A stretch of DNA of 64,000 nucleotides from assembly GCA_963971425.1 (NCBI GenBank), contig OZ020516.1, positions 18,402,593 through 18,466,592 on the forward strand, given 5' to 3'. The DNA is from Bryoerythrophyllum caledonicum (taxonomy: Eukaryota; Streptophyta; Bryopsida; Pottiales; Pottiaceae). Numbering within the stretch: the first letter of the stretch is position 1; the number at the start of each line of letters is the position of its first letter. The notes beneath the pieces were generated by a model, which was given only the letters and a program-made list of their open reading frames with translations, had not been told where the DNA came from and ran no database searches. Positions 16,320 to 59,714 of this stretch are shown one piece after another. The position numbers were made by a program, and so were the translations under genes.

Positions 16320-16510
16320 CAAAATTATGTATATCTACATACTGAGCAACAAATGCAGACAAAGATACAATCTAACAACTAATTTTGGTAAAAAATGACA
16401 TAAATGAATGTTTACATCTATATTTGCTAATTACATATATATTTGCTAATTAGTGGAGAGTGATGAAAAATGACGGAATGGCTGCTCATATCAAATTTTA
16501 CCATAACGCA

Positions 16511-16763
16511 GAAGAAGAAGAAGAAGAAGAAGAACGCCGGTCCCCGAAGGGGGCCGGCGTGAGTAAAGTGTCCGTTCGTTCCACCACTAAGCCCATGCCC
16601 ACCGGGCATGGGTTAGTAGTATGGAACTACTTCCCCCTTTCGAGGGTGGACACTATATACCCAGTAACAAGTAACAAGTAACCAATCCCAGGGGACCCAA
16701 GGTCCCAAAAAGTCCTAAAAGAGGGAGGGCAAGCACGGTGACGTTCAACATGCAAGTGTAGAT
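16511..16763 (-). other. LINE copy 1 3' UTR with stem-loops and (UUC)n tail
   Basis: In the RNA sense, an outer stem (16,579-16,590 with 16,613-16,626) encloses a CCCATGCCC/GGGCATGGG hairpin (16,592-16,612). This is followed by a GC-rich hairpin (16,534-16,560) whose CCCC/GGGG stem is capped by UUCG, then the UUC repeats that end the element. The same order is present at 43,373, 54,740 and 57,147, and in the SINE-like element at 49,730-49,978. Likely the signal recognised by the reverse transcriptase. Confidence 0.75.
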
Positions 16764-18806
16764 CTATGGAGGGGGGTTTAAAGCGTCCGGAAGGGGTTGA
16801 TTGTTTTCAAGTTTACGTTTATGTAGGAGTATCGACATAGCATGTTGAATAGCAATAGTGTTAATATTTGAGAAGGTGGTTTTGATTGAAGTGATGGGGA
16901 TTTTAAAGGTTTCTTCAAGAGTTATCATTGATGGGATGTAGGTGGTGGCTCTAGCACCCGCGGTGATGACAATGAGGGGGTCTACTTTCCATCCTAATCC
17001 TTGAATATCGTCAAGTAGTGGTTGGTATTTATTTGTTTTATTTGAAATGGTGTCCGGAGAGAATCTATCATTGCAATATGTGAATTCAATAAATTGGATG
17101 GTGAGAGTAGGGTCTATGTGGTTTGGTGGCGGGTCTTTGTATGAAAGTCCTCTAACACATAGTAGGTCCGGTTTGAGTCTTGCATTACAGTGGCATCTTT
17201 GGGTATGACAGATGCATGGTAATAGCCACGGAGGGACCGTATTTTCTTGTGGAATGTCATTAAAGGTTCCAGCATTCATGAGAATGAAACATCGGGATTT
17301 GGTTGATGATATAAGTAATTTACGAATAGCCCATACGGCTTTGTTATGTCTTTTAACAATTAATGAGTGTATATGGGGGTTTTGGCACCTGAGTAAGACA
17401 TGTAGCCATGTGTCTGGGTCCGTGGTGTTACAAATTGAACATGTAATTGTAGGGAATCTTTCTATTCCAAAGAAGAGTTGTTTGCGGACATTGCCCATGT
17501 ATTGTCCGGTGCGAAATTTGATTAGGCATGTGATTTGTGAATCTGTTATAATGGGATTTTTCCAGAAATTGTTGGATAGTACTTTATGAATGTTTGGGTT
17601 GCCAGTCCATTTATCAATATTGGGGAAGTTTTCTGTAAGTTTTTCTAGGTTATTTACAAGATCATGTTTTTTGAGATATTTGTCCAAGAATTGTATGGGG
17701 CCTTTATCGGGAGTTTCACCCATGGAGGGCCATTCATATCTATGGAAGTAGTATGGGGTGGCATGGGCGTGTTCATATGGGTGTTCGGCATTCTTGTGGG
17801 TTTTTTCTCTTCCTTCCTTTGCTAGTTTGTCGGCTTGTTCATTACCGTCAACATTAGCATGCGCACGGACTTTATGGAGTGTAGTGATCTGTGTATGGTT
17901 TTGGAGCATTTCAACCATAGATGTAAGGATAGTTTTATCCGGGTGACTATTGTGTAAAGTAGGGTGCTTAATATGTGTATTAAGGAGATATAATACATTT
18001 ATGCAATCTGTAAAAATGTGAGCCGGTTCGTTTGGGTATTGGATGGTGATTATTTTAAGGGTTTTGTGTATAGCCATCATTTCGGCTCTTAGAATAGTTT
18101 GGAGTCCATGTAGTCTTTTACCTAATTTAATTTGTTTGGTTGAATTGTATATCCCATAACCGGCTTTTTCTCGGTGCCAATGTCCCGGGCTTACTTCGGT
18201 TGGTTCTTTGAAAGAGCCGTCAGTGTAGTAGCTAAAGTTGGGGTCAAATTTAAGGTCTGTATTAGTTTGGTAGTAGGAGAGGGGGAGGCTTAATTCGGTA
18301 ATTTGTGATGTGGAGATGTTTGTGTGAGGGGTTTTAGACCATTTTTTGTTGCGATTAACCCGGGTTGCAATGGGTGTGGGAGAAGCAATTGCGGTGTATA
18401 CCTTGTTAATGTTTAGATTTCTTGCTATCAATGTCAGATGAGTGAGGTTGTCTAGAATACCTATTTCACAAGTTTGTTGGTGTATACATAAGATACGTAG
18501 AGTTGCCGGTTCCAGGCGGGGTGTTTGTATTTGCGGTGGAATAGTGGGTTCTTTGTATGTCATAGTGTCCGCTTCGAATAATACTATGATGTGGGAGTCC
18601 GGGAATGGGCCTAAGTGTGGGTTAGGGTTATGGTACCAATGAGTATCGGGAGTGATAATAATGGTGATGTTGTGGTTGGGGTCATTTTTTGCCGCCAGGC
18701 GTGCCCAATGTATTGCTTGTTGTATTTCTTCTTTGTTGTGAGGGTGTGCAAGGCCTATTCCAGTCCACTTGTAATCAAAAGCTTTACCAAGAGAACCAAA
18801 AATCAT
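16764..18806 (-). CDS. LINE copy 1 ORF2, C-terminal part: RNase H, CCHC, PD-(D/E)XK-like
   Basis: RNase H shows YYTDGSF (about 18,208-18,235), RAEMMAIHKTL, HIFTDC and HANVDGNEQADKLAKEG (about 17,820-17,860), i.e. the D-E-D-D set. About 130 residues later comes the zinc knuckle C-x2-C-x9-H-x4-C (about 17,386-17,445). The last 150 residues contain LKPDLLCVRG, then IQFIEFTYCNDRF and GWKVDPLIVITAGARAT. That is the PD...(x26)...E layout of restriction-like endonucleases attached to some retrotransposon RTs. The frame is open further upstream (to about 19.5 kb) and is the direct continuation of the RT segment. The second endonuclease call rests on motif pattern only. Confidence 0.8.
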   Translation of the reverse strand: MIFGSLGKAFDYKWTGIGLAHPHNKEEIQQAIHWARLAAKNDPNHNITIIITPDTHWYHNPNPHLGPFPDSHIIVLFEADTMTYKEPTIPPQIQTPRLEPATLRILCIHQQTCEIGILDNLTHLTLIARNLNINKVYTAIASPTPIATRVNRNKKWSKTPHTNISTSQITELSLPLSYYQTNTDLKFDPNFSYYTDGSFKEPTEVSPGHWHREKAGYGIYNSTKQIKLGKRLHGLQTILRAEMMAIHKTLKIITIQYPNEPAHIFTDCINVLYLLNTHIKHPTLHNSHPDKTILTSMVEMLQNHTQITTLHKVRAHANVDGNEQADKLAKEGREKTHKNAEHPYEHAHATPYYFHRYEWPSMGETPDKGPIQFLDKYLKKHDLVNNLEKLTENFPNIDKWTGNPNIHKVLSNNFWKNPIITDSQITCLIKFRTGQYMGNVRKQLFFGIERFPTITCSICNTTDPDTWLHVLLRCQNPHIHSLIVKRHNKAVWAIRKLLISSTKSRCFILMNAGTFNDIPQENTVPPWLLPCICHTQRCHCNARLKPDLLCVRGLSYKDPPPNHIDPTLTIQFIEFTYCNDRFSPDTISNKTNKYQPLLDDIQGLGWKVDPLIVITAGARATTYIPSMITLEETFKIPITSIKTTFSNINTIAIQHAMSILLHKRKLENNQPLPDALNPPP

Positions 18807-19537
18807 ATCGCGTTCGAATGGAGAGTAAAATTTGGAGATTTTTGTGGGGCATGTAACGGGGGATGAGAAGTATGAGTGTGTGATATTTAGGGATGTAATA
18901 AGGTAGTCTAAGATAGGATCAGGTAATGTGTAGTGTGCATTTTTAAGGGGGTCATTTTTGGGTATGCGGTAGTTATATCTATGGTATAGCCAAACAATTT
19001 CGGTTTCAAAAGTTTGGGGTATTAGTTCAATGCTAATGGGGGTTTGTAGTGCGTTGTGATATTGGTTCCATAGCCATTGTAGTCTAGCAAGTGGTATGGT
19101 TATTAGGTGTCTCCCATTACCTTCGTATATGAGGGCATTATCTTGTTGTATTTTAATAGTATTTGTTTGTGCGAGGATGTCTGTTTCGGGGTTGCATTCG
19201 GTTGTAAAGATGTTAAGGAGGGGGATAATAAGAGGTGGCGTGACAAATCTATTATCTCGAGGTTGTGCTTGAGGGTGGTGTAATTGTATGATATTAAGGT
19301 AGTAGTTATTTTGAGTTCTAAGGTAGTATTGTGTGAGGATTTCGGTGTTATGTAAGGAAGTATTTGGGTTGTGCCAAGGAAAAAGATTTCTTTGTGGGAG
19401 CCATTTGGCGTAGGAGGTGTTATTGTGGGACCAATGGCATAGGTATGATGTATATTGTTTGCTTATGTTGTAAGAGTCAATGTACTTTCTATGTTTGTGC
19501 GCGGTTATGTTGTTTATTGGGTGTATGGAGGGATTTT

Positions 19538-22282
19538 TTAATATATGTGGTGGGGGGTATGTGGACGTGAGTGTGGTGAGTTTGGAGGGGTTAGTGGGAG
19601 GTTGATGCTGGGGTGGGTGTCACTGTGATTGATGATGTATGAGTCTTTAAGTGTGTATGGTGGGGCGTGAGTGGTACAATGGTTGGGGCATGTAGGGAGG
19701 CATGGGGGGTGGCAAAATAATTGTTTAGCAATATTTAGTGCACTTTTTATTAGTTTGTGAGGGGTACCGTAGAATGTTTTGTAGTTCTTGTCGTCCATTA
19801 GTTGTGTTCCATTTGGTAGTGTAATTTGTTTTAGATCAATAATGTTTACAGAGAAAAGTTTTTGTAGGAGTTTGTCGGATAGTTGTCGGTCAAGTCTAGG
19901 GAGGTTATGTATTTCATTTGCCCAATTTTGTTCAAGTGGTGCGGGGCCTAATAAGAAATCTTCTAGTGTGCTTTTTAGAAATGTTTGGCCTTCCTTTTTT
20001 AGTAGATAAAGTGTGCGGGTGATCGGAGATCTAAGGCAATCAGATTTTTTAAGTCTTTGGAGGTATTGTGCACCTCCATAAATGGCAAGGATGTGCCGGA
20101 GGAGTCCACTGTAAATTAGTCCTAGTCGGCCTTTGTCGTTAAGTGCATTTTGGAGTTGTTCTCCAATGCAACGTATATATTCATTTTTTAGGGAAAAAGC
20201 TTCTAATCCGAATAGTTCGTGGGGGAGTTGTGTTATGACATTGGGCGTACAATTAGGGAGTCCGCATACTTTCTTTTGTATAGCTATGATTTTTTTATCT
20301 AGTTTGTTGATGGCGGGCATGGAGTACGGGACCGCATAGAAACTATATGAGATACCCAGACGTATGACGGTATCAATCATTTTTATTTTTTGTTGCAATG
20401 TGGCCGGACAGAATGAAAGTTCCTTGCATTGTTTAATAAGCTTTGTAGTAGTAGCGTGGATTTGAGTTTTCCATTTTAGAGATGGAACTAGGTTTATTCC
20501 AAGGTATATGTAGGGTTGGTTTTGGTTGAGAACCGGGATTGGTTGATTACGATAGTGGATGTTGGTAGCTTGAATAATGGCTTTGAAGGCCGTCGGGTTT
20601 ATTTTGGATTTGTTTGGGCAACCGGTTACGGCACATTTCTGGACCCCAAGTTCCATCCCGGACCATAGACAAAATTTGTCTATTTTGTCTAATTGAATTT
20701 GGAGTGATTTAAGTCGTCCAGAGATGGCCGCTAGATCATCGGCATATGCGGCCGAATTTACGGTGACTTTATAGGTACCAAATGTGTAGCCGTTATTACC
20801 TCTTTGAAGCCATCTCAGTAGAGGTTCTAGAAAAATAATAAAGAGGTATGGGCTCAATGTGTCGCCTTGGATGGTACCACGTTGGATGGGGATAGGGCGT
20901 GTTTTACCAAAGAATTCTCCGACGTATGTAGTGGTAGATTGGGAGTATATATTGCCAACTAGTGTAACTGCGTCTTCCGGGTATCCAAGATCATTCATAA
21001 TGGCTAGCAATCGAGGATGGTCAATGGAACCAAATGCATTTTTGAAGTCAATATAGAGTATGTAAATGTCTTTATTTGTGAATTTAGCATCTTCAAGAGC
21101 GGCAATGACGGTTTGAAGTTGACGTGTGGTACTTCTTTCGGCTCTAAACCCTTCTTGGCTTTCATGTAATATTTGGTGTATTTCTCCGTAGGCCGATAAT
21201 ATTGATGTGAGTGTACTAGTGTATAATTTGTAAATGGTGTTAGCTAGGGCAATAGGTCGGTGGTTAGGTAGCACGGATGGGTTGCCTTTTTTGTATAATA
21301 GGATTGTTAAACTTGTTTTCCAAGATGCGGGAATGGATTTTTGTTTGTAGCAATGAAGGAAAAATAATGATAGAAGATCGTGGAATCTTGGGGGCATGTT
21401 TTTTAGAATTGAGTTGGGTATGTGGTCCGGGCCAGGGGCTTTGTTAGTCCCCAAATTTTTTAGGCACATGTTGTATGTGTCTCTGTTATAATATGTGTGG
21501 AGAGGTGTTGTTGGTTCGCCTCTTTTATCAATAGTAAATCCGTCTAGCTCATGCCACGGGTATTGTCTAACTCCGCATGTACATGTTGGTGTATGTTGTG
21601 GTTGAAAGTGACATGGGGGGGTGGTTGGTCTATTGTTTATGGATTGTTGAATATGTATTTCGTTTGCAATGTCATCTGGGCTAGTTAGAATGTTGTTGTT
21701 TTGATCTAGAATACAGTCTAGTGGCAGGTTTGTGTTATTTTGAAAGACTTTTCTATTAATCTTTTTTGGGCTAGTTTCGTATAGTTGTCGATATTTCGAA
21801 ATGGCTTTTTTGACACATTCTCTAGCATACTTTGAAGTAATTTTCCGAGCTTCTTTGTTGGCGACTTTTGCAATGGTTGCAATGTCTTTTAGCCAATCTT
21901 CGTGAGGGGTGTTGATTGGTGGTACTTGAGGTATTTGGGGGTGACAAATGTTTTGTAGTTCGGAGAGTATGGGATGGGTTCGCCAATTTTGGTTACTTTT
22001 AACAATATATATTATTTTTCGAATAGTGTGGTATGTGACAAGATGTTGTTTCCATTTTTTGGCTAGTTTTCTTGGGAGATACCCCCCTTGTTTCGAGGTT
22101 CTAGGAGTGAGTTGTGGAATCGGGGATGCTTTACAAGTCTTTTCTAATGTAGTAGAAATTTCTTTAATAAGTTTGTCAAGAGTTGTGCAAGCTTCTTGCC
22201 ATTGTATATGTGTGAGGTGTTGGTGGTTAGAAAGGATATCTGTAAGGGAGTCTATTTGAAGTGAGTTTTTTTCAAAGAACAT
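19538..22282 (-). CDS. LINE copy 1 ORF2, reverse transcriptase part
   Basis: Non-LTR reverse transcriptase with the usual blocks in order: NKAPGPDHIPNSILK, SWKTSLTILLYKKGNP, NHRPIALANTIYKLYTS, ESQEGFRAERSTTRQ, ILYIDFKNAFGSIDH, RGTIQGDTLSPYLF and AAYADDLAAISG (about 20,726-20,755). The YADD catalytic aspartates are intact. A thumb-like region and a long linker follow. The first Met shown is internal: the frame is open upstream and carries the end of the APE domain. A frameshift near 19.54 kb separates this part from the RNase H part; copy 3 reads through that point in one frame. Confidence 0.88.
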   Translation of the reverse strand: MFFEKNSLQIDSLTDILSNHQHLTHIQWQEACTTLDKLIKEISTTLEKTCKASPIPQLTPRTSKQGGYLPRKLAKKWKQHLVTYHTIRKIIYIVKSNQNWRTHPILSELQNICHPQIPQVPPINTPHEDWLKDIATIAKVANKEARKITSKYARECVKKAISKYRQLYETSPKKINRKVFQNNTNLPLDCILDQNNNILTSPDDIANEIHIQQSINNRPTTPPCHFQPQHTPTCTCGVRQYPWHELDGFTIDKRGEPTTPLHTYYNRDTYNMCLKNLGTNKAPGPDHIPNSILKNMPPRFHDLLSLFFLHCYKQKSIPASWKTSLTILLYKKGNPSVLPNHRPIALANTIYKLYTSTLTSILSAYGEIHQILHESQEGFRAERSTTRQLQTVIAALEDAKFTNKDIYILYIDFKNAFGSIDHPRLLAIMNDLGYPEDAVTLVGNIYSQSTTTYVGEFFGKTRPIPIQRGTIQGDTLSPYLFIIFLEPLLRWLQRGNNGYTFGTYKVTVNSAAYADDLAAISGRLKSLQIQLDKIDKFCLWSGMELGVQKCAVTGCPNKSKINPTAFKAIIQATNIHYRNQPIPVLNQNQPYIYLGINLVPSLKWKTQIHATTTKLIKQCKELSFCPATLQQKIKMIDTVIRLGISYSFYAVPYSMPAINKLDKKIIAIQKKVCGLPNCTPNVITQLPHELFGLEAFSLKNEYIRCIGEQLQNALNDKGRLGLIYSGLLRHILAIYGGAQYLQRLKKSDCLRSPITRTLYLLKKEGQTFLKSTLEDFLLGPAPLEQNWANEIHNLPRLDRQLSDKLLQKLFSVNIIDLKQITLPNGTQLMDDKNYKTFYGTPHKLIKSALNIAKQLFCHPPCLPTCPNHCTTHAPPYTLKDSYIINHSDTHPSINLPLTPPNSPHSRPHTPHHIY

Positions 22283-22593
22283 TGTGTTGAAGTTATCAAG
22301 GTTTTCTCTTGGGATGGGGTTAAGTATTTTAATGTCATTTGAGTTGATGATTGGAGGAGGTCTATTTATAAGGGTGTTGTGTGGTATGTTTAGTTGGACT
22401 GGGAAATGGTCCGAATTTAAGTTGGTTGTGGTATTGGTGATGGATGTATATTGGGTATGGTTAGGTGTTTTGATGTAAAATCCATCAATCAGGCTAGTAT
22501 GTGTGTAATTAGGACCTCCTTGTCGAGAGTATTGTGTATTGATTGGGATTAAATGTAATTCTAGATTATCCGTATAATTTTGCCATTGATAGT

Positions 22594-25203
<2,610 letters not shown>

Positions 25204-25445
25204 ATGTTTGGGGTTGGGATATGTTTTTGCTTTTGTAGTTGTTCTACGGATATGGGGTTTTAAAGAAATATGTAGGTTCCCTTTTAAATATTTTGGTGAG
25301 TTTTTTTTAATTTTTGAGGTAGTATATAAATATACTATTGAATATATTACGATGGTATTATTTTTATTTTTTTGGATTTTCTTGTTTGATGGTAAATAAG
25401 TATATAAATATACTTTTAGGTATTTTATCTTGTTGTGGGTCGGAA

Positions 25446-27133
25446 CTAGTTTAACAAGTCCGGTCGTTTGACAACCATGGATGACTCTTTTGAGGCTTCC
25501 TCTTCATGTGCTTGGATTATTTGAACGAGGTGCATGCGAAGCGAAGACATCTCCCCTCGAAGTGTCTTTGCTGTCTTAGCTAAGACATTGTCTGCATATA
25601 CTTGAGCTTCTTGTACAATCTCTGTCTTTAGTGATGCCATCTCCTTTCTTACCTCCATAATGGTACTACTGGTGCCTTTCTTCACCTCCTCTTGGACCAT
25701 CTTGTGAAGGTCTTCTTTGCTATATCCATTTTTCGGAGCACTCTAGTGCAATGACTGCATTAGCGACCGCCGTGTTCACTTCATTGAAACCCCATTTTGT
25801 GACACATTCATCCGAAGGGGCGCTACTTCCGTTCAGGCTTTTCGGGTGAGGGGTAAATTCCACATATTTACCTAGGATTTTACCGCTGGTGTTTACTAAT
25901 TTTTTGTATACTGCCGCATTCAAGCATTGGATGTTACATATCCCAACATGTCGACCATGTTCGAGCTTGAAATAGATGTCCACGACATTCTCCTTGCCCA
26001 TAAATGCGTTGATACCTTGCTCTAGCGCACAAACAGTCTTTGCTTTGTTTAAGTTTTTAGCGATCAAGATGAGGGCGTTCTTTTTGGCTTTATCATTTCC
26101 ACTCATCTTCCCTTTACTAGCAAAATAGGGATTGAAAATCTCGTTCGAAAAAGCTATCTTTTGGTCTTTCACTTTTTGAGCTTGTTCGGGGGAGGGGGTT
26201 TTTAACCAAGCGAATTCTAGTTCTAGTTTCTTTTGAACATCTGTTATTTCATACTCAAATCCTCTAACAAACCCCTCCTTCACAATTTCCTCATGCAAAA
26301 CATACCATGGTTTTTGGGCCAAGTTAGCCCCAAAGATTTTGACTGATAGAAGGTTTGCAAGAGCTAGGGAATCATAACTCTTGCATACCTTCCCTCTACA
26401 AGGAATGCCCTCATTAAGGCTCAAGATGAAGGGTCTCGTATTTGAGAAGCCCTTTAACGTCCACACCAGGGTTTTTGAGGTGGAGTTTGATGCTGCCACT
26501 CCATCTATCCGTCTTGTGGTGGCATAAAATCGCAATTGGTTCACCTAACAAGTCTCCTAAACCAATGTTCATGTGAAGAAGTCGCATTTTAACCATGGCA
26601 TAGATTGCATCCTTTGAGTAAATTTGTTCCCCTATTTCAAAGAAAATGGCTATTTGATAATCTAATGCATATCCATGTTCATCGGTCTCTACCTCACTGG
26701 GTACCTGGGTTAGGTTAAAGTGATTACCTTCTTTCCCATCTGTCCTTTGCGAAGGCCACTCTTCTTGGACGACAAAGGGGAAGGAAGGCAATGCCACAGC
26801 CTTCTCTTGTGCTTCTGTATCAGACATTCCCATTTCAATCATTTCGGAGACCGTTAGGACAGGTTCCTTGGTGATACCACTATGCAAAGCTATTGTATTA
26901 AGTGTCTTAAAACCTAGCCAATAAGGTGGACGAGAAGATTTTGATGCTCTAACCTTCTTTAGGTTAGAAGTGTTCTCCATCTCATCATTGGTCCTCTTGT
27001 GCAATGCAACAGTCTCGCATGTGTTTTCCTCAACAATTTCCATTAGTACAGGACCATTGTGAGGGGCGACAGTAAGATCAACAAGCATACGGTCTAGTCC
27101 TTTGGAAGAGGAGGCGGTGGTAGTTTTTGTCAT
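25446..27133 (-). CDS. LINE copy 1 ORF1: two RRM-like modules and coiled coil
   Basis: Candidate RNA-binding ORF1 protein, about 560 codons, homologous along its length to copy 2 ORF1 (51,058-52,662). It starts MTKTTTASSSK. It then has a conserved YWLGFKTLNTIAL block and a first RRM-like unit (YQIAIFFEI - helix - PIAILCHH - WSGSIKLHLKN). A second unit follows (ALILIAKNLN - helix - VVDIYFKLEHGRHVGICNIQ - helix - KYVEFTPHP) in which the paired strands resemble RNP2/RNP1. The tail (25,446-25,700) is a charged heptad-like coiled coil. Two frameshifts (near 26.45 and 25.72 kb) break it. The ATG lies two bases after an intron-acceptor-like CAG. RRM assignment is from predicted strand/helix order. 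Confidence 0.65.
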
Positions 27134-27929
27134 TCTGCATGTCAAAGGTAAGAGGGTGTTATTAGCATTTTCTACGAGTTCAAGTGTAGAGTTGCTTAGG
27201 GGTACTATGTAATCACTTCCATCCCACAACTTACTTTGTGGGCTTGCAGGTCGTGATAACAAGTAAAAGCATGAGAAGATAAAAATTGATGCAACATATA
27301 GAAAGGATTTGGGACTTAGAGAGTGCTTACCTGTTTGATGGACGGGCGTTTGATGCAGGGCAAAGGGGATAGTACGATGTTTGCCTCTGTAGTGTATACC
27401 AACACTGTTGGGCATATGGTTGTTCTGGCGGCGAGCTTCACAGTGTCTCCGCACGGCTGCCACCTCCTCACCGTATGTCTTGCTCCGACCGTATCTTGCT
27501 CTGTAGTACCTCCACCCGCTTATCTCCACATGAGCAAGCGTCTTCCAATTTACTCCTACGCAGTACCCCACAGCATGTTCTGTATCGTTCCAACGTCTTC
27601 TTTCCTGTGCCAACACCTTACGAGGGTTTGGGAGGGCGAGGCCGCCTCTGAATCGTACCTCGCAGGGGCTTGCCTGATTCGGGCCGCTAGTATCCACGTT
27701 GGGCGATACTCCTGCTCGGCTTTGTGGAGGCTGATCTTCTCTCTTGAACGCCGCGTTTCGGTTCTGCTGGACCTTCGCACTGGTTTTCCTTGTGTTCAGC
27801 GGTTCCTCTTGACTCCGAGTTTGTTCACCCCACCACTTCGCCGTCCTAGGGTTCCCAGTCCAGTAGCTGTTGCCTGATGGTGCACCTCCGCCGTCGAGTT
27901 GTGTTGACTGAGAATGCCGTTCAGTCTTT

Positions 27930-28340
27930 AGGCAGCAACGTAGGCGAGCAGCACCTTGTGGAATGGCTTGTTGTCGGGAACTCCTATGTCTTGGGCAGCG
28001 GCAGGGACGGGCAGCACCGTGCGGGGCGGCTTGATGCCGCGCTCTTCTCCGCCTTGGGCAATAGCATCGACGAGCAGCACTGTGCTGGGCAACTTGATGC
28101 CGAGCTCTCCTCCACCTTGGGCAGCAGCATGAATGAGCAGCACCGTGCGGGGCGATTTGATGTTGAGCTTTCCTCCGACTTGGGCAGCAGCAAAGACGTC
28201 TTGGAAAGTGGCGCAGGCGAGCATCACTGTGTGGAGCGGCTTGTTGTCGAGCACTCCTCCGCCTTGGGCGGCAGCAAGGACGTCTTGGGCAGTAGTAAAG
28301 CCGAACACTGTGCAGAGCGGTTTGATGTCGGGCACTTCTT
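27930..28340. repeat. 63-bp tandem repeat in LINE leader
   Basis: About five or six units of the pattern GAGCAGCACCGTGCGGGGCG...CTCCGCCTTGGGCAGCAGC, some with an added 21-bp GTCTTGG segment. Because 63 and 21 are multiples of three, several frames on both strands stay open; on minus this gives a Cys/Arg-rich 21-residue repeat. Possibly promoter monomers, as in other LINE 5' UTRs. Confidence 0.7.
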
Positions 28341-29269
28341 CGTCTTCGGCAGCCGTACTGAGTGGCTCTCCGAGAAGCCACTCTCCGAAAAGCAGGTCGA
28401 CCACTCTGTCTGCTTGGCCTACAGCGTGGGGGAGCGACGTCTTGGAGATCGGTTCTTGGGTGCTCCGGATCTGGTTGTGTGCTACCTAGGGGTGGGGTGG
28501 CGGCCTGAGTGGAGAACTGGGGCGATGCTACGTACGTGATTCTAAGGTAAGATGCTCTCTGCCTACACACAGGAGCTCTATACTTCTCTGTCTGCTTTGT
28601 TCGGCCACTATGGAGATGTCTAGGAAGGTCTGAGTAGTGAGAGGCTAGATAGAAGGTTGAGCAGAAGAGTTTGTATGAAGAGTATTTATACTTACTTGCT
28701 GGGAGTAGGGTTTTGTTAGGGGAGTCGTGAGGGGAAGAGAGGCGCCGTTGCTGCATCTTCCTCATTCTAGGGTTTGTTGGCGTTTGGGTTGATCTTTGGC
28801 TTTCAGTTGAAAATAGTGGGTATCTTGTTTGCCAGGTTGCTGTGCGTCAGATTTGGGGTGTCACATGGGTGGCGTTGTGTGCCAACTTTTCTGTTGGCGA
28901 AGATGGCTTGGAGCGGGGCAGCGTGGAGTCTTGGCTGTCAAGTTAGCTGTTGGAGCGTCTGTTTGATGCTCTGACTTTGCTATTTTTGCATGTCTGGGCA
29001 TTGCAGCACCTTCCCTTGTGCTTTTCTGCACATATTTTCCAGGGTAATTTTTTGTTAGGAGAGTGAAATGATAGAGAGGTTGGAGATCTTACCTTAATGG
29101 TGATGAAGTTGTTTTTTGCTTGTCGTCGTTTTCTTGATGATGACTGAATCTTGTGTTCTTGGGCGTGCTCTGTATGTCTCAGGTGGGCGTTCTTGGACTT
29201 GGCGCATTGTGGACAGCAGGTGCAGCAGTGGGGGCCATCTGTTTGATGGAGTGTGCAGCAACGATACCT

Positions 29270-29510
29270 TTGACCATCTAGTACGTGTCTTTCTATTCGG
29301 CTCTCTATTGTTTCGTTGTTTACTGTTGGCTCGATCTTCGCGTCTTGATGGAGTTGTGGTGGTCCCTGTGCAGGTGCGCGGCAGCGGTAACTTTGACTAT
29401 CTGGTACGTGTCTCTCCATTCGGCGCTTTGTTGTTCTGTTGCTGTTGTTTACTGTTGACTTGATCTTCACTTGTTGATGGGGTTGAGGTGGTCCTTGTGC
29501 AGGTGCCATT
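29270..29510. repeat. Tandem duplication of about 124 bp in LINE leader
   Basis: Two adjacent units share TTTGACCATCTAGTACGTGT, TTGTTTACTGTTG, GATCTTC and TGGTCCCTGTGCAGGTG in order, with moderate divergence. No coding role is apparent. Confidence 0.6.
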
Positions 29511-31210
29511 GGTCGGTGGGGCGAAGTTTGGTTGCGCATCCTAGAGTAATGTCGCTCCTTGGCGTTTTGCAGCACGTCCTGAAATGATGTTTCTCCATGT
29601 ACATGCATATGTATTCTATAGGCTAATATAGCTACTCTTATGTGTTTGTTTATTTTTGAGATTATACATCTTGTGTTTCTCACTATGTCGTGCCTGTATA
29701 TTGTGCGTTGTCTAGGTGCTGTGGTGATTATAGAGAGTTTTGGTGTGCAAAGAATCATGTGAAAAGAGAAAAGGAATGAGTTGGAGTTAGAAAGATACTT
29801 ACCTGTATGTTCTTCGTGGGTGTTGTGTGTTTGGCCTCGTCGGGGTCGTGGTGCGTCCCTGCCTTCTCTTTCGAGGTTCAGTTCTTGTATGTTGACGATA
29901 TTTGCAACCGCGCGGGTCTGCTCCAGTGTTGGTTCTTGAAAGGCTTCCTCGTGTATGTGCAGGCAACAGTGTTGGTGATGGTCGGCAAGGGGCTCCTTTG
30001 TGAGTTTCTGGTGATCTGCCTCATGCGTGGGCAAGCCGCGGCGTCGCTGGTGGCCAACAGGGGGCTCTGTTGTAGGTTCTTGTAAGTCCTCCACTTGCAT
30101 GTCTGCTGCTAGTTGGTACATGTTGTGTTGTTTATTCGGGTTTTTGTTGTCTATTGCTAGCCATCTCGTGGGGGCGCGTTTGAATCTGTTGGGAGGGGTT
30201 AGTGGTAGTTTGAAAATTGAAAATGTGGGTAGAGTACTTACCTTAGTTGAGGTTGTCGCCGTGTCTTCTCTGACGCATGCCTGTTGTTGTTGGTGCAGGT
30301 GTATTGCTGCTGCTTTAGCTCGGGGCAATCTCTGTGAATCCTTGCCTTTACTATTTTGACTCCTCTCCTCCTCGATGTTGAGTTGCTGCTGTGCCCGGTA
30401 GGGCTCCTTGGCGGTGTTGAGTTGCTGTTGTGCCTGGGTGGGCTCTGAGTGTAGCATTTTCGATCCAGTGGTTTCTTGTGTCTGCAACAGGTGGTTATTG
30501 TGCTTCTCTGTGCCTGCGCGGTTATAGAGTGAACCTACTTCTACCACTATTCCTGATTTATGTAAAACTAACTTGCAATTCCAGAAATGAAATATTACGA
30601 GGTGTATTTTGCAGCATGCGTCTACTTTGCATTTTCTAACAAGGAACATTGTATGCTGCATTTTGTAAGAGGGTAACTTATCTGATTTTGTTGAATGTGG
30701 TGTCTGTTGGTGCTGTCTTGTGTCTTGGCGGCTGGTTCTAGTCTTGTGTAGGCAGTAGTTCATCTTCACGGTAGTGCTAGAGTCCTAGTTGAGGAGGGGG
30801 GGTTTGGTGTGTGGTATTTCTATGGTGTCGTGGTAACCTAGATCTAGATCTGACTGACTAGGGCATGGTATGGAGGCTGCAACCTCTAGATCTAGAACTG
30901 GGCCAACACAGAGCCCCGCCTCAGATCTACTCTCCCAAACTAGTGCTAGGTTGTTGCATCCTCATACATACTTTGTCAGTAGAACTAAGATTTGCAATCC
31001 CTCTCAACTCTCTACACCATCCTAATACCGTTCAGCAACAAAGGAATGCATACCGGGATTTACAATGAGCCCAACAACCCTCATTGTTGTGTGCATTGTA
31101 TTTGCACCTAACACCACGAAGACCCCTCCTCACCAGGTTTTGCGGAGCTACTCTTGTCTCATCTCACTCACTTGCTCCAAGCGATCCGCATCAATAATTA
31201 CCATAACGCA

Positions 31211-43372: not shown

Positions 43373-43639
43373 GAAGAAGAAGAACGTCGGTCGCCAAAGG
43401 AGGCGGACGTGAATGAAGTGTCTGTTTGTTCCACTACTAAGACCATGCCCATCGGACAGGGAATTAGTAATCTGGAACTACTTCCTTTCGAGGATAGATA
43501 CTATGTAACAAGCAGCCAAAAACCACAGAACGCACCAATTGTAATAATAAGGAGGGGGGATGCAGGGGGAGGGAAGAGAGAGAGAGAGAAGAGAGAGAGA
43601 TGAGGGGGACAGATGGAGAGGAGGGTGTGTTTCGCAATA

Positions 43640-46600
43640 TTAGGGATTTAAAATAAAGTAAAGATGCAGTTTTATGGGGGTCTTGTGTATCGGGAAGGGC
43701 TTGGTTGTTTTCAATTTTGCGTTTATGTAGAAGGATGGACATAGCGTGTTGTATGGCAATGACCTTAATATTCTTGAAAGTGTTTGTAATTGTATTAATA
43801 GGAATTTTGAAGGTATCTTCTAGGGTTTTCATAGACGGAATAAAGGTGGTGGCGCGAGCGTCGGTTGTGATTACCATCAGGGGGTTGACTATCCATCTGA
43901 GTGTAGTGATGTCGTCTATAAGGGGTTGGTATTTATTGATTTTGTTTTCGATTGATTCTAGGGAAAATCTATCATTACAGTATGTGAATTCGATGAATTA
44001 AATGGTATAGTTTTGGTTTATGTGGTTGGGTGGGGGGTCATTGTATGATAGACCTCTAACGCATAGTATGTCCGGTTTGAGTCGAGCATTGCAGTGACAT
44101 CGTTGGGTTTCACATATACATGGAAGTAGCCATGGTGGGACTGTATTTTCTTGTGGGTTGTTGTTAAAGGTTTCGGCATTCACGAGGATAAAACATCTCG
44201 ATTTGTTATGGAAGGTGATTCATTTACAGAGTTCCCATACGGCTTTGTTATGTCTTTTGACAATTTGGGAGTGTATGTGGTGGTTATGACATTTTGGTAA
44301 AACATGTAGCCATGTGTCGGGGTCCGTGGAAGTGCATATTGGGCATATTATGGATGGGAATCTTTCTATTCCAAAGAAAAGTTGTTTTCGGGCGTTTCCC
44401 ATGTATTGTTCGGTACAAAATTTGATAAGGCATGTTATTTGTGAGTCGGTGATGATGGGATTTTTCTAGAAATTTGTAGAGAGTTCATTGTCTATGTTGT
44501 TGTTGTTAGTCCCCTTTTCTATGTTAGGGAAGTCATCTGAGATTGTGTCAAGGTTATTATATAGGTCTTGTTTTTTGAGGTATTTGCTCAAAAATCTAAC
44601 CGGGCCTTTATCGGGGGTGTCTTCTTTGGAGGGCTAGTCTTCTTTTTGGAAGTAGTATGGGGTGGCGTAGGCATGTTCGTGTGGATCTTTGGCATTTTTG
44701 TGTGATATTTCCTGGCCCTCTTTTGCTAGTTTGTCGGCTTGTTCGTTACCATTAATATCGGCGTGGGCTCGAACTTTGTGGATGGTTGTGATTTGTCTTC
44801 GTTTTAGTATCATTAGGACCATAGATTTTAGCATGATTTGGTCGGGGTGGCTAATGTGGGGGGTAGGGTGTGTTATTTAGGTGTTTAATAAGTATAGTAC
44901 GTTAATGCAGTCTGTGAATATGTGCGCTGGTTCATTATTGTATTTTGTTGTAACAATTTCCAGTGTTTTGTGGATGGCCATGAGTTCTGCTCTGAGGATA
45001 TTTTGTAGTCCATGCAATCTTTTGGGTAATTTGATTTCTCTTGTAGGATTGTATATTCCAGAACCGGGTTTTTTTCTACGCCAATTATCCGGGCTGATTT
45101 GTTCTGGTGGTTTGAAGGAGCCATCGGTATAGTAGCTATATGCGGGGTCAAATTTTGGTGAGGTGGTAGTTTGGTAGTCCGGGAGGGGTGGAAGTGATAA
45201 AATGTAATCTAGTGTATTGTTATTGTAATTTAGTTTTGACCATTTTTTGTTTCTGTTGACTGATGTTTGTATAGGTGTTGGTAGGGCCATCTTTGTATAC
45301 AGCCGGTTTATGTTAAATTTTTTTGCTATGGAGGTGAGGTCGGCAAGTTGTTCTAGGGTGTCAATAGTTTGGTTTTGGTGGTGGACGCATATTATTTGTA
45401 ATGTAGATGGTTCAATTCTGGGCTTTTTTAGCTCGGGTGGGATAGAAGGTTCTTTGAAATTGAGTATGCTTCAAATATTGCAATGATATGGGAGTTTGCA
45501 AATGGCTGGACTGGGGATTAAAGTTTTGATACCAATTTTTGTTTGGTGTGATAATGAGTATAGATGTGTGTTGTGGGTCATTTTTAGCAGTAAGGCGGGC
45601 CCAATGTAGTGCTTGTTGAGTTTCTTCCTCATTGTGGGGGTGAGCTATACCATTACCGACCCATTTATAGTCAAAGGCCTTTCCCAAGGAGCCAAATATT
45701 TTATCTCTTTCAAAGGGTGAGTAGATTTTTTTTAATTTGGTCGAGCATGTGACGGGGGAAGAGAAGTATGATTGTTCGATGCTAAAGGATGAGATTAATG
45801 AGTCTAGAATAGATGTGGGTATTGTGTATTGTGCATTTTTGAGGGGATTATTTTTTGGAATGCGGTATTTATATCTTTGGTATAGCCAAATTAATTTGGT
45901 TTCAAATGGTTGGGTTGTTGGCTCAGTGTTTGTAGGAGTTTGTAGTGTCATGTTGTATTGATTCCATAGCCATTGGAGTCTAGGAGTGGGAATAGTGTGT
46001 AAGTGTCGGCCATTTGCTTCACATAGATGGGCTTGATTGTTCTCTATTTTAATTGTGTCCGAGATTGTGATAATATCGTTTTCGGGGTTACTTTCCGTTG
46101 TATAGATGTTTAGAAGTGGGATGATTATAGGTGGGTTACGGATCTTGAGTCTTGTAATTGTTCTTGGGGGTGGTGGGCTTGAATGATTTCCGAGTAAAAT
46201 TTATATTTAATTTTTTGATAGTATTGTTTTAGTTTTTTGGTGTTATATGTGGAGGTATTACACTCGTGTCTTGGAAAAAGGTTTCTTTGAGGAAGCCATT
46301 TATTGAATGTATTGTTGTTGTGTTGCCATTGGCAAAGGTATTTAATACTGGTATTATGTATTCTGTTGGTATCTAGATGTTGTATATGTTCATGGTGTAT
46401 GATGTTATTAATAGGGTATGTGGTGGGATTTTTGGTGATGTATATTGGGGGAGCGGGGTGATATGGGTATAGGGGGTTGGGAGGATGGATTGGTGGTAGG
46501 GTAGTTCTTGGGAGGATGTTATTATTGATGGTGATGAATGGATCTTGGAGTATGTAGGAGTATGGGTGTATGTTACAAGGGGTATTGCATGTAGTGGAGC

Positions 46601-49600
46601 ATGTTGGATGGCAAAAAAGTTGTTTGGCAACATTTAGGGCTTTCTTGATTAGTGTGGATGGGGTGAAGTGGAAGGTTTTGAAGTCCTCATTATTCATGAT
46701 GTGTGTGCTGTTTGGTAGAGTGATTTGTTTTAGTTCAAAAATATTTTTTGAGAGGAGTTTTTGTAAAAGTTTTTGGGCGAGTTGGACGTTGAGTGTGTTT
46801 TGGTTTTGTATTTCTTGACTCCATACTACTTCTAATGGTGTTTGATCACAGAGGAAGTTTGGAAGTGTACTCTTAAGGTGAACTTTAGCTATATGTTTTA
46901 ATAAGAAGAATGTACGGGTTATTGGTGATCTTATACAATCCGTTTTTTTAATTCTGGGTATATTTTCAGCACCACCATATTGAGCAAGTACATATTGAGT
47001 TAGCCCATTATATTTTTTTCTGAGCCTACCTTTATTATTTAGGGCATTTTGTAATTGTTCCCCTATATATCGGAGATAGGCATTTTTGAGGGAGAAAGCT
47101 TCAAGTCCAAATAGGTTATGTGGGAGTTGGGTTATTGCGTTTGACATGCATTTTGACATACCACAAATGGTTTTCTGTATGGCTATAATCTTTTGGTCAA
47201 GTTTTTTAATGGCTGGCATAGAGTATGGTACAGCGTAGAAGCTGTATGCTACTCCTGAGCGTATTTCAGTGTCAACCATCTAAATTTTTTATTTCATAGT
47301 GGCCGGACATGTTGTTAATTCTTTGCATTGTTTAATGAGTTTTGTGGTTGTAGCGTGGATTTGGATTTTCCATTTTAGAAAGGGAACAAGATTTGTGCCT
47401 AGGTATACATATGATTCATTTTGGTGTAGTATGGGGATTGGTTGGCCACGGTAGTTGATGTTAGAAGCTTGCATTAGGGCTTTGAATGTAGTTGGATTCA
47501 TTTTGGATTTATTTGGGCATCCAGTAGCAATGCATTTTGGGACACCTACGTCCATACCAGTCCATTTCCAATATTTGTCGATTATTTTAATTTATGTTTG
47601 TAATGATTTTATTTTGTTAGTTATAGCGGCAAGGTCATCGGCGTATGCGGCGGAGTTTATAGTGTTTGTGATGTACCAAAAGTGTATCCATTATCGCCTC
47701 GCTCTAGCCATCTAAGTAGTGGTTCTAAAAATATAATGAATAGGTATGGGCTCAGGGTGTCCCCTTGTATAGTCCCTTTATGGATGGAGATGGACTTAGT
47801 TTTACCAAAGTACTCACCGGTGTAGTAAGTAGACGATTGGGAGTATATATTTCCAACTAATGTGGTTGCATCTTTTGGGTACCCAATATCCGTCATTATC
47901 GCTAGTAGTCGGGCGTGGTCTACAGAACCAAAGGCGTTTTTGAAGTCAACATATAAAATATATATGTCTTGGTTTGTGAATCGTGCATCTTTTAGTGCCG
48001 CTATCATGGTTTGTATTTGTCTAGAGGTACTTCTCTCTACTCTAAATCCTTCTTGACTATCGTGTAGGATTTTAAACTTTTCACCATATGAGGATAATAT
48101 TGAGGTAAGTGTACTAGTGTAGAGTTTATATATTGTGTTGGCTAATGCAATTGGTCTATGATTTGTTAGTATTGAAGGATCTCCTTTTTTGTACAGTAAA
48201 ATTATTGCAGTTGTTTTCCATGAGGCTGGTATTTGTTTTTGTTTATAGCAATGAAAGAATAATAGAAATAGTAATTTATTAAATCTTGGGGTTATGTTTT
48301 TTAGTATTGAGTTCGGTATACGGTCTGGCCCTGGGGCTTTGTTATTTCCGAGGTGCGGAGACATGCGTCATATATGGCTCTATTGAAGTATGTGTGCAAT
48401 AGAATTTTAGGTTTGCCTCGTTTGTCTAAGGTAAATCCATCTAGGTCATGCCATGGATATTGGCGTACTGCACATGTGCAATCGGTTGGGTGTTGCGGTT
48501 GATAGTTGCATGTTGGTATTGTCGGTCTATTATTTTTTGTCTGTTGGTTGAATATTTCGTTTGCAATATCTTCCGGGCTAGTTAGAATGTTATAATATTG
48601 GTCAGTGATACAATCTAATGGTGGAGATTCTAGTTTTTTTAAAACTTTTCTGTTTATTTTCTTAGGGCTAGTTTTGTATAGTTGTCTATATTTTGAGATG
48701 GCTTTTTTAATATTGTCTTTTGAGTATTTTGTAGTTACTTTCTGGGCTTGTATATTGACATTTTTTGCGATTAATGCAATGTCTTTTATCCATGTATCAT
48801 GAGAAAGTTCGGGGGGGGGGTGGAGCAAGAATTTTGGTGTGGTGTAAAGCTAGTAGTAAATTACATATGGGATGGTTATGCCATTGTGGGTTATTTTTTT
48901 ACGGTTCAAATAGTTTTTTGTATTATATGATATGTAGTTAGGTGTTGTTTCCATATTTTAGAAAGTTTTTGGGGTAAATAACCTCCTTGTTGTGATGTTC
49001 GGTTTGTCATTTGTGGTATTGGTTGAGCTATGCAAGTTTGTTCTACTATATCAGAGACATTGTTGGTGAGTTTATCTAGGGTGTGGCATGTTTCGTGCCA
49101 TCGTGCTTGAGAAAGTTGGTTATTATTTTCAAGTCATGGAATATATACAAAACATATTCATGTTTAGATTTTGTGGCGGATTTTTTTGTTTCTTGGATGG
49201 CTAATAGGGCAAGTGGTGTTTCTGTATATGTGGTCAAAGCTTTTAAGCTCGGGACAGCAGTGTTTAGAGATGACGCATTCCATGTAATGATGTTTGTATT
49301 TTCGTTGTTTGTGCTAATGTTTTGGTTCTGTGGGGGAAGAAAAGAGGGGGGAGGGGGTGGGTGGGTATATTCTACTATGGTGTCAAAACATTTTAGTGTT
49401 TTGTTAATTAGATTGTTGAGAAGGTAAGGAAATTTTTGTTTTATTGTGGTGTTTGAGGGTGGTATGGTTTGGCTATGTAAGAAATTGTATAGTTCTTTAT
49501 GTATTGAGTTCCCGTGATTTATAAGATTTTGATTTTCTTCAAGAATCTTTGTGTATGGGTGCGGGGTATGAACATGTCTTTTTGGTGGATTTTGTAAGTT

Positions 49601-50260
49601 TCAGAAGGTTTGTAGTAGTGTGTTTGTCCATGTGATTATATTCATGTTTTGAGGGTTTAAAAGTTGGTTACATTCGTCTATGTTTGGGTGGATGGTAATT
49701 ATTAGGGCATATAAGATATGTGTTGGTGGCTACCACCATAGTCCACCCAACTATGGTGGGGGTTCTTGAGACCTCGTTGTATGGGTACCCAAAAAGCCCT
49801 TGGGTGGGATGACATGTCGGTTGTCTTTAAGGCACTTAGTGTAGAAAAATGTTTACCTTCGAAAGGAGGAAGTAGCTCTAGATTCACTATCCTTTGTCCG
49901 GTGGCCATGGGATTAGTGAATAGAATGAACAAACACTATATTTACGCCGGTCCCTTCGGGGCCGGAGTTCTTCTTCTCTGTTGGTGGATGTGTATTTTGT
50001 TGTTGTATATATTGGGCAATATTTGGGTGTGTATTGTTGTATAGATGATGTAGTGTATGTGTGGTTTTTAAGAGAGGTGCAAATGTTTGAGCGATGTGTT
50101 TGTATTCCGGTTGTAATTTTATGGTATTTGGTATAAAGTATATTTTGGCGTTTTTCTTATGTGATGTGGGATGAGTTTTTAGTATATTATGCATTGGGCC
50201 CGGGTTGGTTTCTATGTCTCCGTCTAGAAGTAGGAGGAGTTTTATGTGTTTAGCTTTGGT
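43640..50260 (-). pseudogene. LINE copy 2 ORF2, decayed
   Basis: Fragments in several frames give, in order: 2A GDIETNPGP (50,195-50,221) after IKLLLLLD; the N-terminal conserved region; part of the RT (48,364-47,657: NKAPGPDRIPNSILK, NHRPIALANTIYKLYTS, DFKNAFGSVDH, GTIQGDTLSPYLF); thumb (47,279-46,125); RNase H (45,290-44,634: YYTDGSF, RAELMAIHKTLE, GNEQADKLAKEG); the C-x2-C knuckle; and the PD-(D/E)XK-like end (LKPDILCVRGLSY, FIEFTYCNDRF). Much of the APE domain is missing or unreadable: only its first part is seen near 49.1-49.3 kb, and the sequence then joins the RT linker. Multiple stops and frameshifts; not functional. Confidence 0.8.
49730..49978 (+). mobile_element. SINE-like element nested in LINE copy 2
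   Basis: A 249-bp insertion in the opposite orientation to its host, with TSD TGTTGGTGG at 49,721-49,729 and 49,979-49,987. Its 3' third (from about 49,857: TTCGAAAGGAGGAAGTAG, paired stems around GTCCGGTGGCC, then CCGGTCCCTTCGGGGCCGG and TTCTTCTTC) matches the LINE 3' UTR. Its 5' part is unrelated to the LINE and starts with a CCACCATAGT/ACTATGGTGG hairpin. No convincing tRNA-type A and B boxes are seen, so its promoter origin is open. Likely mobilised by the LINE machinery through the shared tail. Confidence 0.7.
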
Positions 50261-51057
50261 GTTATGTTTTAGTATTTTTGTTGTTTGTGTAATTTTATGG
50301 GGGTTTTTTTATGTTTTTAGGGTTGTGTTTGTTTGAAAATGTATGTGTGTCTTTGTATGGGTGTGTTGTTGTGTTTGTGGTATGACTATCCTTTGAGTGT
50401 GTTGTGTGTTGGTTGTGGTTTTGTATGTTTTGGTAGGATGTGGTGGGAATGTTTCCTAGGAGTGGTTGTATGTGTGCCTTAGGTCAAGTTGGTGTGGTTT
50501 TGTTCGTGTATTGGTGTGTGGTATGTGTTTGGTGAGGAGGTAATTCCAAGGAGTGATGATACTCCAATGCCATTGGCATTGATAGGTCGGAGGTGTTTTG
50601 AGGTAGTGATGTAGTCTACCATTTATTGCTATGTTTGTTTGAGTAAGACATGTGGGGTGTGGTGATATTTCCACAAGGCTAACTACAAACATGTGACAAT
50701 TGTGAGTGAAGGAGTATTTAAACAATGAGATAATAAGTGAGAGAAGGATGAGGTATGAAGTATAGCTATGGTGTTATATGAGAATGGAGGGAGAACAATA
50801 GTATGAATATATTAAGGATGGACTTATAAGCAAAGCTACAGCTAGAGAATAAACTATGTAGAGAACTAGGAGATGAAGCATAATGGTGGCATAGAAGGCA
50901 TTAACAATAGATAGAGGGGGAGAAGGTGGAGTTAGTGATAGAGAGAACCAATGCCAACGCGGTTGGTGAGTCATTCGTGGGTGGTCCGTGGTCAATCCAC
51001 GTTTGACGGGCCATTTGAGGGCGGAAGAGAGGGCACCGAACCGCTTCCATTGATACC

Positions 51058-52662: not shown

Positions 52663-52779
52663 ATTTGAGGGAGAGGTAGGGATAGCACTAGGCTTTGTCT
52701 TCCTTAGTCTTGTCCAGGAGTATTTTGGTGAGAGATGGAGGTTGCAATTATGGGAGAGAGGAGGTCGTTGGGAGGGTGA

Positions 52780-52990
52780 GAGGTGATAGTGGTAGGTCGA
52801 AGGGGATGGGAGAGGGTCGCAGGGGGTTAGAGAAGGAGGTTGGAAAGGGAGGAGGGTCGCAGGAAGGAGGTCGCAGAGAGTTGGAGGAGAGGTTTGTGAA
52901 GGGAGGAAGGTCGCAGGAGGGAGGTCGCTAGGGGGTGGGAGGTCGCTGGAGGAAGGAGGTCGTTGTTGGTAGGTCGATGAGGGGGGTCGT
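52780..52990 (+). repeat. G-rich GGAGGTCGC array
   Basis: Irregular repeats of GGAGG(A/G)AGGTCGCAGG on the plus strand, with many GGG runs. The transcribed (minus) strand is pyrimidine-rich. The plus strand could form quadruplexes; no coding role. Confidence 0.5.
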
Positions 52991-53186
52991 TGGTAAAACG
53001 TCATTGATCTCTAGCAGGTCGTTGTTGGGAGGTCTTTATTGCTCGGGGGTCTGTGTCCGTTGCAGTTTGCATGAGATTCGAAGGAGGGTCTAGACGTGCG
53101 TTTGCACATGAGCAGTCTATGGGAGTCTCTAATCGTTTGCTGCTTGTGCGGCTTTCTGTTCTTGGCTCGCTTATGATGTTTCTTGC

Positions 53187-55619: not shown

Positions 55620-55626
55620 TACTCGA

Positions 55627-59685: not shown

Positions 59686-59714
59686 CCAGTGTAGTCTAAC
59701 GAGTGGTATGGTTA

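Follow-up and report, generated by a model that had tools for sequence, protein, structure and literature searches.

A 14.7-kb LINE with a PCIF1/CAPAM-like domain in Bryoerythrophyllum caledonicum

The element and its ends

The window analysed here is a stretch of 64,000 nucleotides from contig OZ020516.1 of Bryoerythrophyllum caledonicum, and it contains a long interspersed nuclear element (LINE) that we refer to as c1. The coding frames of c1 lie on the minus strand, so that its 3' end is at position 16511 of the window and its tail is (TTC)n. The features of c1, including its target-site duplications (TSDs), open reading frames (ORFs), 3' untranslated region (UTR) and predicted domains, are as follows.

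16498..16510, no strand: TSD TTACCATAACGCA, 3' side, flush with the (GAA)n tract of the plus strand
16511..31197, minus: complete LINE copy c1, 14,687 bp between the TSDs (exact TSD and four same-ended copies elsewhere)
16511..16534, minus: (TTC)8 3' tail (GAA on the plus strand), from the sequence
16535..16763, minus: 3' UTR; the end adjoining the tail holds an inverted repeat rich in G+C, CGCCGG..CCGGCG, from the sequence
16764..25503, minus: ORF2 region, three frames in c1 (open frames; uninterrupted over 3,087 codons in a young relative)
16950..17441, minus: C-terminal region resembling a restriction-like endonuclease (RLE), limits approximate (C-x2-C-x9-H-x4-C, KRHN, KPD, (I/V)EFTYCND, KYQPL)
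17808..18233, minus: RNase H domain (PF00075, E=2.1e-13)
18645..19016, minus: PCIF1/CAPAM-like domain (PF12237, PCIF1_WW; E=2.8e-9, 37.2 bits, cut-off 31.1), HPHN in place of NPPF
20492..21283, minus: reverse transcriptase (RT) with AYADD motif (PF00078, RVT_1; E=8.7e-30)
22397..22729, minus: endonuclease of the apurinic/apyrimidinic (APE) type, C-terminal part of the match (PF14529, Exo_endo_phos_2; 24.2 bits in c1, below the cut-off of 27.4)
23797..23820, minus: 2A peptide DIETNPGP (motif in 4/4 elements)
23885..24297, minus: perfect (CAA)137 tract, encoding polyQ in the frame of ORF2, from the sequence
24331..24357, minus: degenerate second 2A-like motif RDSNQNLGP (motif search)
25510..27400, minus: conserved part of ORF1, limits approximate, two frames (alignment with copies c2, c4 and Y, see below)
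27400..31167, minus: 5' leader, inner limit approximate, with tandem repeats at 27990-28288 and 29268-29506, from the sequence
31144..31163, minus: conserved 5' terminus GATGAGnnnnGAGTAGCTCC (common to 22/22 aligned copies, flanks differ)
31168..31197, minus: copy-specific filler of ~30 nt between the conserved 5' end and the TSD (alignment of copies)
31198..31210, no strand: TSD TTACCATAACGCA, 5' side, exact 13-bp match to the 3'-side copy

The sequence TTACCATAACGCA was found on the plus strand at two places, 16498-16510 and 31198-31210, which bears out the original prediction of an exact 13-bp TSD at both ends of c1. In a chance control, 24/3000 random 13-mers of the left flank recurred in 16511-64000 (repeats included), and the TSD of c1 taken alone therefore has a p of ~0.01 or less. 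The stronger proof of the size of c1 is given by genomic copies with the same ends, rather than by this TSD. The predicted 5' boundary was right in the placement of the TSD at 31198; the terminus conserved among copies lies further in, at ~31163-31167, and the outer ~30 nt are specific to c1. Self-comparison detected no match of at least 60 bp between the two ends of c1, and thus no long terminal repeats (LTRs). The usual length of plant LINEs is 5-8 kb, a figure also used in the original prediction, so that c1 is about twice as long as usual.

Same-ended copies in the genome

The genome (437 Mb, 894 contigs) was searched for 5' ends with the outer 1.2 kb of c1 and for 3' ends with its 3' 1 kb. 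The best 40 of 464 and the best 40 of 5665 first-look candidates, respectively, were scored; first-look counts, here and below, stem from a loose search and do not represent confirmed copies. The scored places are the best by likeness to c1, and low overlap between the 5' and 3' sets is expected. At 34/40 scored places the 5'-end match began at query position 29-35. The 5' ends of 20 of the 39 other scored places were fetched and aligned with those of c1 and of c4, a long copy described below (n=22). GATGAGnnnnGAGTAGCTCC was common to all 22 aligned 5' ends, and the sequence preceding it was different in each.

Five other 5' ends were 96-98% like c1, and four of them pair with a 3' end 14,467-14,848 bp away. 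The 5'-to-3' spans within 20 kb were 14,663 bp for c1 and 14,801, 14,467, 14,823 and 14,848 bp for the four others. TSDs of 11-14 bp were present in 4/4 paired copies, two of them perfect (TTCCAACATTTTAG, 14/14; TGCACATTCCT, 11/11) and two with one mismatch (TGCA(G/A)TCATCAAGA, 13/14; TTTC(A/G)TTTGCATG, 12/13). The filler between TSD and conserved 5' terminus, ~30 nt in c1, measures ~11 to 65 nt in these four copies. The fifth close 5' end (C14:18103928, 96%) had no partner among the best 40 of 5665 3' ends. The check suggested together with the original prediction, a search for copies with the same ends and matched TSDs, thus returned four such copies of 14.47-14.85 kb, each with its own TSD, and c4 is another TSD-flanked copy with the same order; the view of the 14.7 kb as one unit is upheld. 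A further check for the empty target site found none, as the one genomic match of the pattern TTACCATAACGCATGAATATCC was the filled site.

The position of ORF1 agrees between copies. A genome search for ORF1 (best 141 of 3074 first-look candidates scored, 141/141 at E<=1.3e-92) placed it 4.5-4.74 kb downstream of the 5' end in the four paired copies, as in c1, and 4.19-4.74 kb behind 7/40 scored 5' ends (c1 included), with 0.045 expected after shifting. ORF1 was followed by PF12237 at 5.6-7.1 kb in 4/141 scored ORF1 matches (0.2 expected), and, with 43 of the 141 ORF1 matches used, it was found 8.6-10.1 kb before 13/40 scored 3' ends, c1 among them.

Four copies of the family, c1 to c4, begin in the window. 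The far end of c4 was read from the next stretch of the same chromosome. In addition to c1, the following features belong to the family.

43373..55626, minus: copy c2 with nested c3, decayed TSD (14/16; 43357 and 55627)
54740..55619, minus: copy c3, 5'-truncated, 880 bp, at the 5' end of c2, perfect 12-bp TSD TACTCGAATCTA (54728, 55620)
57145..64000, minus: copy c4, continuing to 70044 beyond the window, 12.9 kb, perfect 13-bp TSD CTTGGTTTTTCCA (57132, 70045)
49855..49977, plus: 3'-end fragment of the c1 family, in opposite orientation inside c2 (self-comparison)

After subtraction of the nested c3, c2 measures ~11.4 kb, close to the ~11 kb originally given for the second copy. A 12-bp match of the c4 flank at 58167 was considered as TSD and taken as chance, because the homology continues across it and 70045 has a 13-bp TSD. 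The filler of c4 (70013-70044) resembles a hairpin, GATCTTA...TAAGATC. A (TTC)n-type tail was also found in c2, c3, c4, a further copy c6 and 10/10 young copies (see below). No (GAA)n tail was found for another copy, c5, and just an 8-bp match could serve as TSD of c6.

The family also contains shorter and younger members. In a genome-wide search for PF12237, the best 150 of 2614 first-look candidates were scored, and all 150 were above the cut-off. Among these 150, 42 matches have the same score (50.6 bits, E 4.0e-11), and in 33 of the 42 the open frame is exactly 3,087 codons long. We refer to these relatives as type B. The type B unit at locus Y (L046+L047) is 9.9 kb long and flanked by a perfect 12-bp TSD; C10, a second copy, lies between 12-bp TSDs of its own and lacks filler. 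The 5' terminus of type B is homologous, its leader is a different one, and the unit contains no ORF1; the family thus spans 9.9-14.85 kb. Both Y and C10 lie downstream of an ORF1-like stretch from another element. For the resident element of Y, no TSD was found at the far 5' end (Y 1775), and the nested 9.9-kb type B unit was recognised from there.

When the first 1.2 kb of type B served as query, the best 40 of 257 candidates were scored, all 40 with a printed identity of 100%. These 40 5' ends pair one-to-one, on the same strand, with the 42 equal-scoring PF12237 matches, 38 at a distance of 7.36-7.51 kb and the others at 8.6 and 18.5 kb; the two unpaired matches may lie outside the 40 scored 5' ends. 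The last 201 bp were identical in 10/10 fetched young copies, followed by different flanks. There has been a burst of near-identical 9.9-kb relatives without ORF1 (e.g. G000 C8:15553759 and 39 other places). In 8/10 young copies the 3' flanks (L049-L067) match the family itself, with L051, L053 and L057 judged low-complexity, which suggests that type B may insert into copies of its own family.

The relation between the two halves of the long copies was followed in the comparison of c1 with c4. Identity per 500-bp block is 0.85-0.93 between the 3' end and the CAA tract and ~0.5-0.6 in ORF1; the leader is mostly 0.42-0.48 identical, near the value of a forced alignment, with 76% in the outer 280 bp. 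Synonymous sites are saturated in ORF1, and the number of synonymous substitutions per site (dS) is ~0.5-0.8 in ORF2. Either ORF1 and the leader evolve much faster, or the halves have been exchanged at the CAA/2A junction. We give slightly less than even odds to the second alternative, that ORF1/leader and ORF2 are recombining modules of one family, a unit today and assembled repeatedly by template switching at this junction. The sharp break at the CAA tract, with ORF2 dS so far from saturated ORF1, speaks for such an exchange, as do the young relatives without ORF1 and the presence of the tract in c1 and c4 and its absence from c2 and type B. Faster evolution of ORF1 and leader could yield the same pattern, however, and the whole-length comparison rests on one pair of full-length copies.

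Highly improbable, by comparison, is a chimera of two units, in which an ORF2-only LINE resembling type B landed downstream of an ORF1/leader block that is unrelated to it: ORF1-less type B units with their own leaders, 5' ends and TSDs do exist (a finding that partly counts against the original prediction), two of them with a read 5' junction (Y, C10) sit downstream of an ORF1-like stretch, and c1-c4 identity falls from 0.85-0.93 in ORF2 to ~0.5-0.6 in ORF1 at (CAA)n, but c1 contains one 5'-end motif only, as does c4, TSDs join the far 5' end to the 3' tail in c1, c4 and 4/4 other copies checked, and five loci including c1 measure 14.47-14.85 kb. Since c1 holds this single motif, it is not a type B-like unit nested in another element, and together with the TSDs this led us to reject c1 itself as a nested chimera.

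ORF1, ORF2 and the PCIF1/CAPAM-like domain

ORF1 of c1 is distributed over two frames (28846..26414 and 26544..25720). An RNA recognition motif (RRM), assigned to it in the original prediction, could not be confirmed: no Pfam RRM was found in the pieces of c1, c4 and c2, and an ORF1 profile gave no match in the PDB better than E 1.1. By eye, the predicted order of strands and helices appears RRM-like, a reading that the profile searches did not confirm. A search of the window against Rfam gave no match.

ORF2 was originally described as a reading frame of roughly 2,800 codons. This agrees with its length, 8,740 nt overall, and not with its state in c1, where it is divided into three frames (25503..22594, 22738..19538 and 19619..16764). 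Programmed frameshifting between the three frames is not favoured, because c4 breaks elsewhere and type B is open throughout. From 16511 to 25200 the sense (minus) strand contains 5-17% G and 28-47% A per 1-kb block. On the N-terminal side of ORF2, DIETNPGP agrees with the 2A motif D[V/I]ExNPGP of PMC4981915. The (CAA)137 tract has its counterpart in c4, an uninterrupted (CAA)122 (element position 5177-5542) shortly before the 2A peptide; no such run was found in c2 and type B. The second 2A-like motif, RDSNQNLGP, was not found in c4 and c2, and type B has a different one, GGDINTRP.

The enzymatic domains are shared with c4, in which RT (PF00078) reached 2.8e-30, RNase H (PF00075) 1.6e-9, and the APE-type match (PF14529) 31.4 bits, above the cut-off of 27.4. 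The C-terminal motif set, which we take to be a restriction-like endonuclease, is present in 4/4 elements. No relatives of one ORF2 protein piece (951 aa) were found in viral contigs or plasmids.

Ratios of nonsynonymous to synonymous substitution (dN/dS) were calculated by the NG86 method. Comparable ORF2 pieces are under purifying selection: whole pieces gave 0.06-0.19 versus c4 and c2, the piece holding RT 0.11 and RNase H 0.06 (both c1-c4), the RLE-like region 0.07 (c1-c4) and 0.09 (c1-c2), and the core of the PCIF1-like domain 0.12 (c1-c4) and 0.09 (c1-c2), although c1-c2 dS is 1.5-3, near saturation, so that the ratios versus c2 are rough.

PF12237 lies between RT and RNase H in ORF2. 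It scored 36.4 bits (5.1e-9) in c4 and 46.6 bits (3.7e-12) in c2, both above the cut-off of 31.1, and matched in 17/17 aligned copies; the genome-wide PF12237 search described above gave no match in any of 14 control genomes. A profile of the 17 copies had zebrafish and human PCIF1 as its top matches in the PDB, with weak E values of 0.13 and 0.53 and an unrelated third match at 0.54. In the alignment to PCIF1 obtained with this profile, FGSxG stands opposite FGSLG, and human NPPF opposite HPHN. NPPF is the catalytic motif of PCIF1. In the 17 copies it is replaced by (x)PH(N/T), in which P and H are invariant columns and the next residue is mostly N, with T in L076; [ND]PP[FYW] is absent from the sense frames of 4/4 elements. 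According to PMC7641849, PF12237 represents a CAPAM-like methyltransferase rather than a WW domain, and PCIF1/CAPAM is described in PMC10946433 as N6-methylating the first transcribed adenosine of capped mRNA.

Selection maintains the domain, but methyltransferase activity is doubtful. That it is an active cap-adenosine N6 methyltransferase acting on the RNA of the element appears unlikely to us: the family identity of PF12237 (PMC7641849) and the conserved FGSxG stretch aligned with PCIF1 would fit such an activity, but human NPPF aligns with HPHN, whose P and H are invariant in the 17 copies, and the sense frames of all four elements lack [ND]PP[FYW]. Judged by sequence, c1 has a PF12237 domain that scores above the cut-off and lacks NPPF, and an active CAPAM is not claimed. 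We hold it to be very unlikely that the match is a degenerate passenger without function; the loss of NPPF and the poor structure prediction would suit a passenger, but dN/dS values of 0.12 and 0.09 are near those of the RT piece and RNase H (c1-c4), and 17/17 copies match PF12237, so that the codon test disfavours this explanation. No title or abstract in the open-access literature searched describes a PCIF1-like or methyltransferase domain in a LINE.

Elsewhere in the window we noted a near-perfect palindrome at 13866-13963 (49-nt arms, no spacer), a repeated sequence resembling a miniature inverted-repeat transposable element at 14813-15386 and 33556-34043 (long inverted arms, ~159 nt), a direct repeat of ~570 bp with 78% identity at 7757-8322 and 34704-35280, and AAACCCT telomere-type repeats at 31601-31634 and 39321-39383. 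Those at 31601-31634 (TAAACCC) point to a genome of the green lineage.

Interpretation and relation to known systems

We conclude, with a probability of roughly 0.9, that c1 is a complete 14.7-kb non-LTR retrotransposon made up of a leader of ~3.8 kb, ORF1 and an ORF2 that encodes a giant polyprotein (with a low-complexity N-terminus, 2A, APE, RT, PCIF1/CAPAM-like domain, RNase H and RLE-like C-terminus), presumably moving by target-primed reverse transcription (TPRT) from its (TTC)n tail. The observed basis consists of fixed 5' and 3' ends, TSDs of 11-14 bp, 5'-truncated copies, filler at the 5' junction and purifying selection on the comparable ORF2 pieces. The characters of a LINE are present, namely an RVT_1-type RT, variable TSDs, a 3' tail and 5'-truncated copies, with no LTRs. 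The original prediction is therefore supported in its core, a single giant LINE unit; its RRM found no confirmation, the frames in c1 are interrupted, and the PCIF1-like domain, the 2A peptide and the RLE-like end went unmentioned in it.

Several observations count against this conclusion. Among the scored 5' ends, 35/40 had no partner in the best 40 of 5665 3' ends, and 0/40 paired directly with a PF12237 match, c1-type copies being outside the best 150 of 2614. Both ORF1 and ORF2 are frame-broken in c1, and the reading of the four other copies of 14.5-14.85 kb covered their ends. PCIF1 was not found in the PDB with the c1 piece alone or with a 3-copy profile. The PCIF1-like domain is without NPPF, its structural model has a mean confidence (pLDDT) of 41.6, and Foldseek gave a best E of 0.88 and none <0.001; the stretch just before its core is less constrained, with a dN/dS of 0.26 versus c4. 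Profile searches found no RLE homology, and the AlphaFold model of that region was poor (pLDDT 31.6).

If c1 is such a retrotransposon, TPRT would begin at the (TTC)n tail, as in other LINEs. StopGo at the 2A peptide would free the low-complexity part from the enzymes, APE would make the first nick, and the RLE-like end may assist in the second cut or in binding the template. As for the PCIF1-like domain, it could be a non-canonical module of methyltransferase fold whose task is the cap at the 5' end of the RNA of the element itself. A tentative extension, to which we assign a low likelihood, starts from the capture of a CAPAM/PCIF1 domain by a LINE lineage; the motif for adenine methylation would then have been lost, and strong selection would have preserved the domain as a reader of the cap at the 5' end of that lineage's RNA.

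The domain set of c1 recalls the Dualen/RandI clade of non-LTR retrotransposons, reportedly described from Chlamydomonas by Kojima and Fujiwara in 2005; APE and RNase H are found by profile and the RLE-like end by its motifs, and membership is not claimed. Dualen carries a cysteine protease, and none was found among the Pfam matches of the c1, c4 and c2 pieces. Dualen encodes both APE and RLE (PMC4640811), and 8/8 green-algal RandI families have a 3' repeat other than poly(A) (PMC3747384). c1 is alike in that a single protein unites APE, RT, RNase H and an RLE-like C-terminus, and in that its 3' repeat is likewise not poly(A). It differs by its PCIF1-like domain between RT and RNase H, its 2A peptide, its separate ORF1 and its 14.7 kb.

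With plant L1 and RTE LINEs (PMC9033089), c1 shares RNase H, endonuclease and RT, the two ORFs of L1, TSDs and 5' truncation, whereas its tail is (TTC)n and not (A)n or (GTT)n. The RLE-like C-terminus, the PCIF1-like domain and the greater length set c1 further apart from these LINEs. PCIF1/CAPAM itself is resembled in PF12237 and in the top rank of PCIF1 in the PDB with the 17-copy profile, at weak E; here, the domain is part of a retrotransposon polyprotein and has (x)PH(N/T) for NPPF. Finally, the 2A-bearing non-LTR retrotransposons of trypanosomes and sea urchin (PMC4981915) likewise have D[V/I]ExNPGP in a LINE protein; c1 differs in host lineage, in the long CAA tract before 2A (shared with c4) and in the degenerate second motifs, which occur in c1 and type B.

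The findings widen the range of cargo in LINE polyproteins, in a genome with thousands of loose first-look candidates, which are unconfirmed as copies. An open question is how a LINE completes full-length copies and gives preference to its own RNA. If the PCIF1-like domain is a cap reader, both ends of the RNA would be held by one polyprotein, which would favour complete copies, and elements of 10-15 kb could persist and burst as near-identical full-length copies. The 14.7-kb element, its young relative (40/42 equal-scoring domain copies with one and the same 5' end) and the cap-methyltransferase-like domain allow a direct test of whether a LINE protein reads 5' caps.

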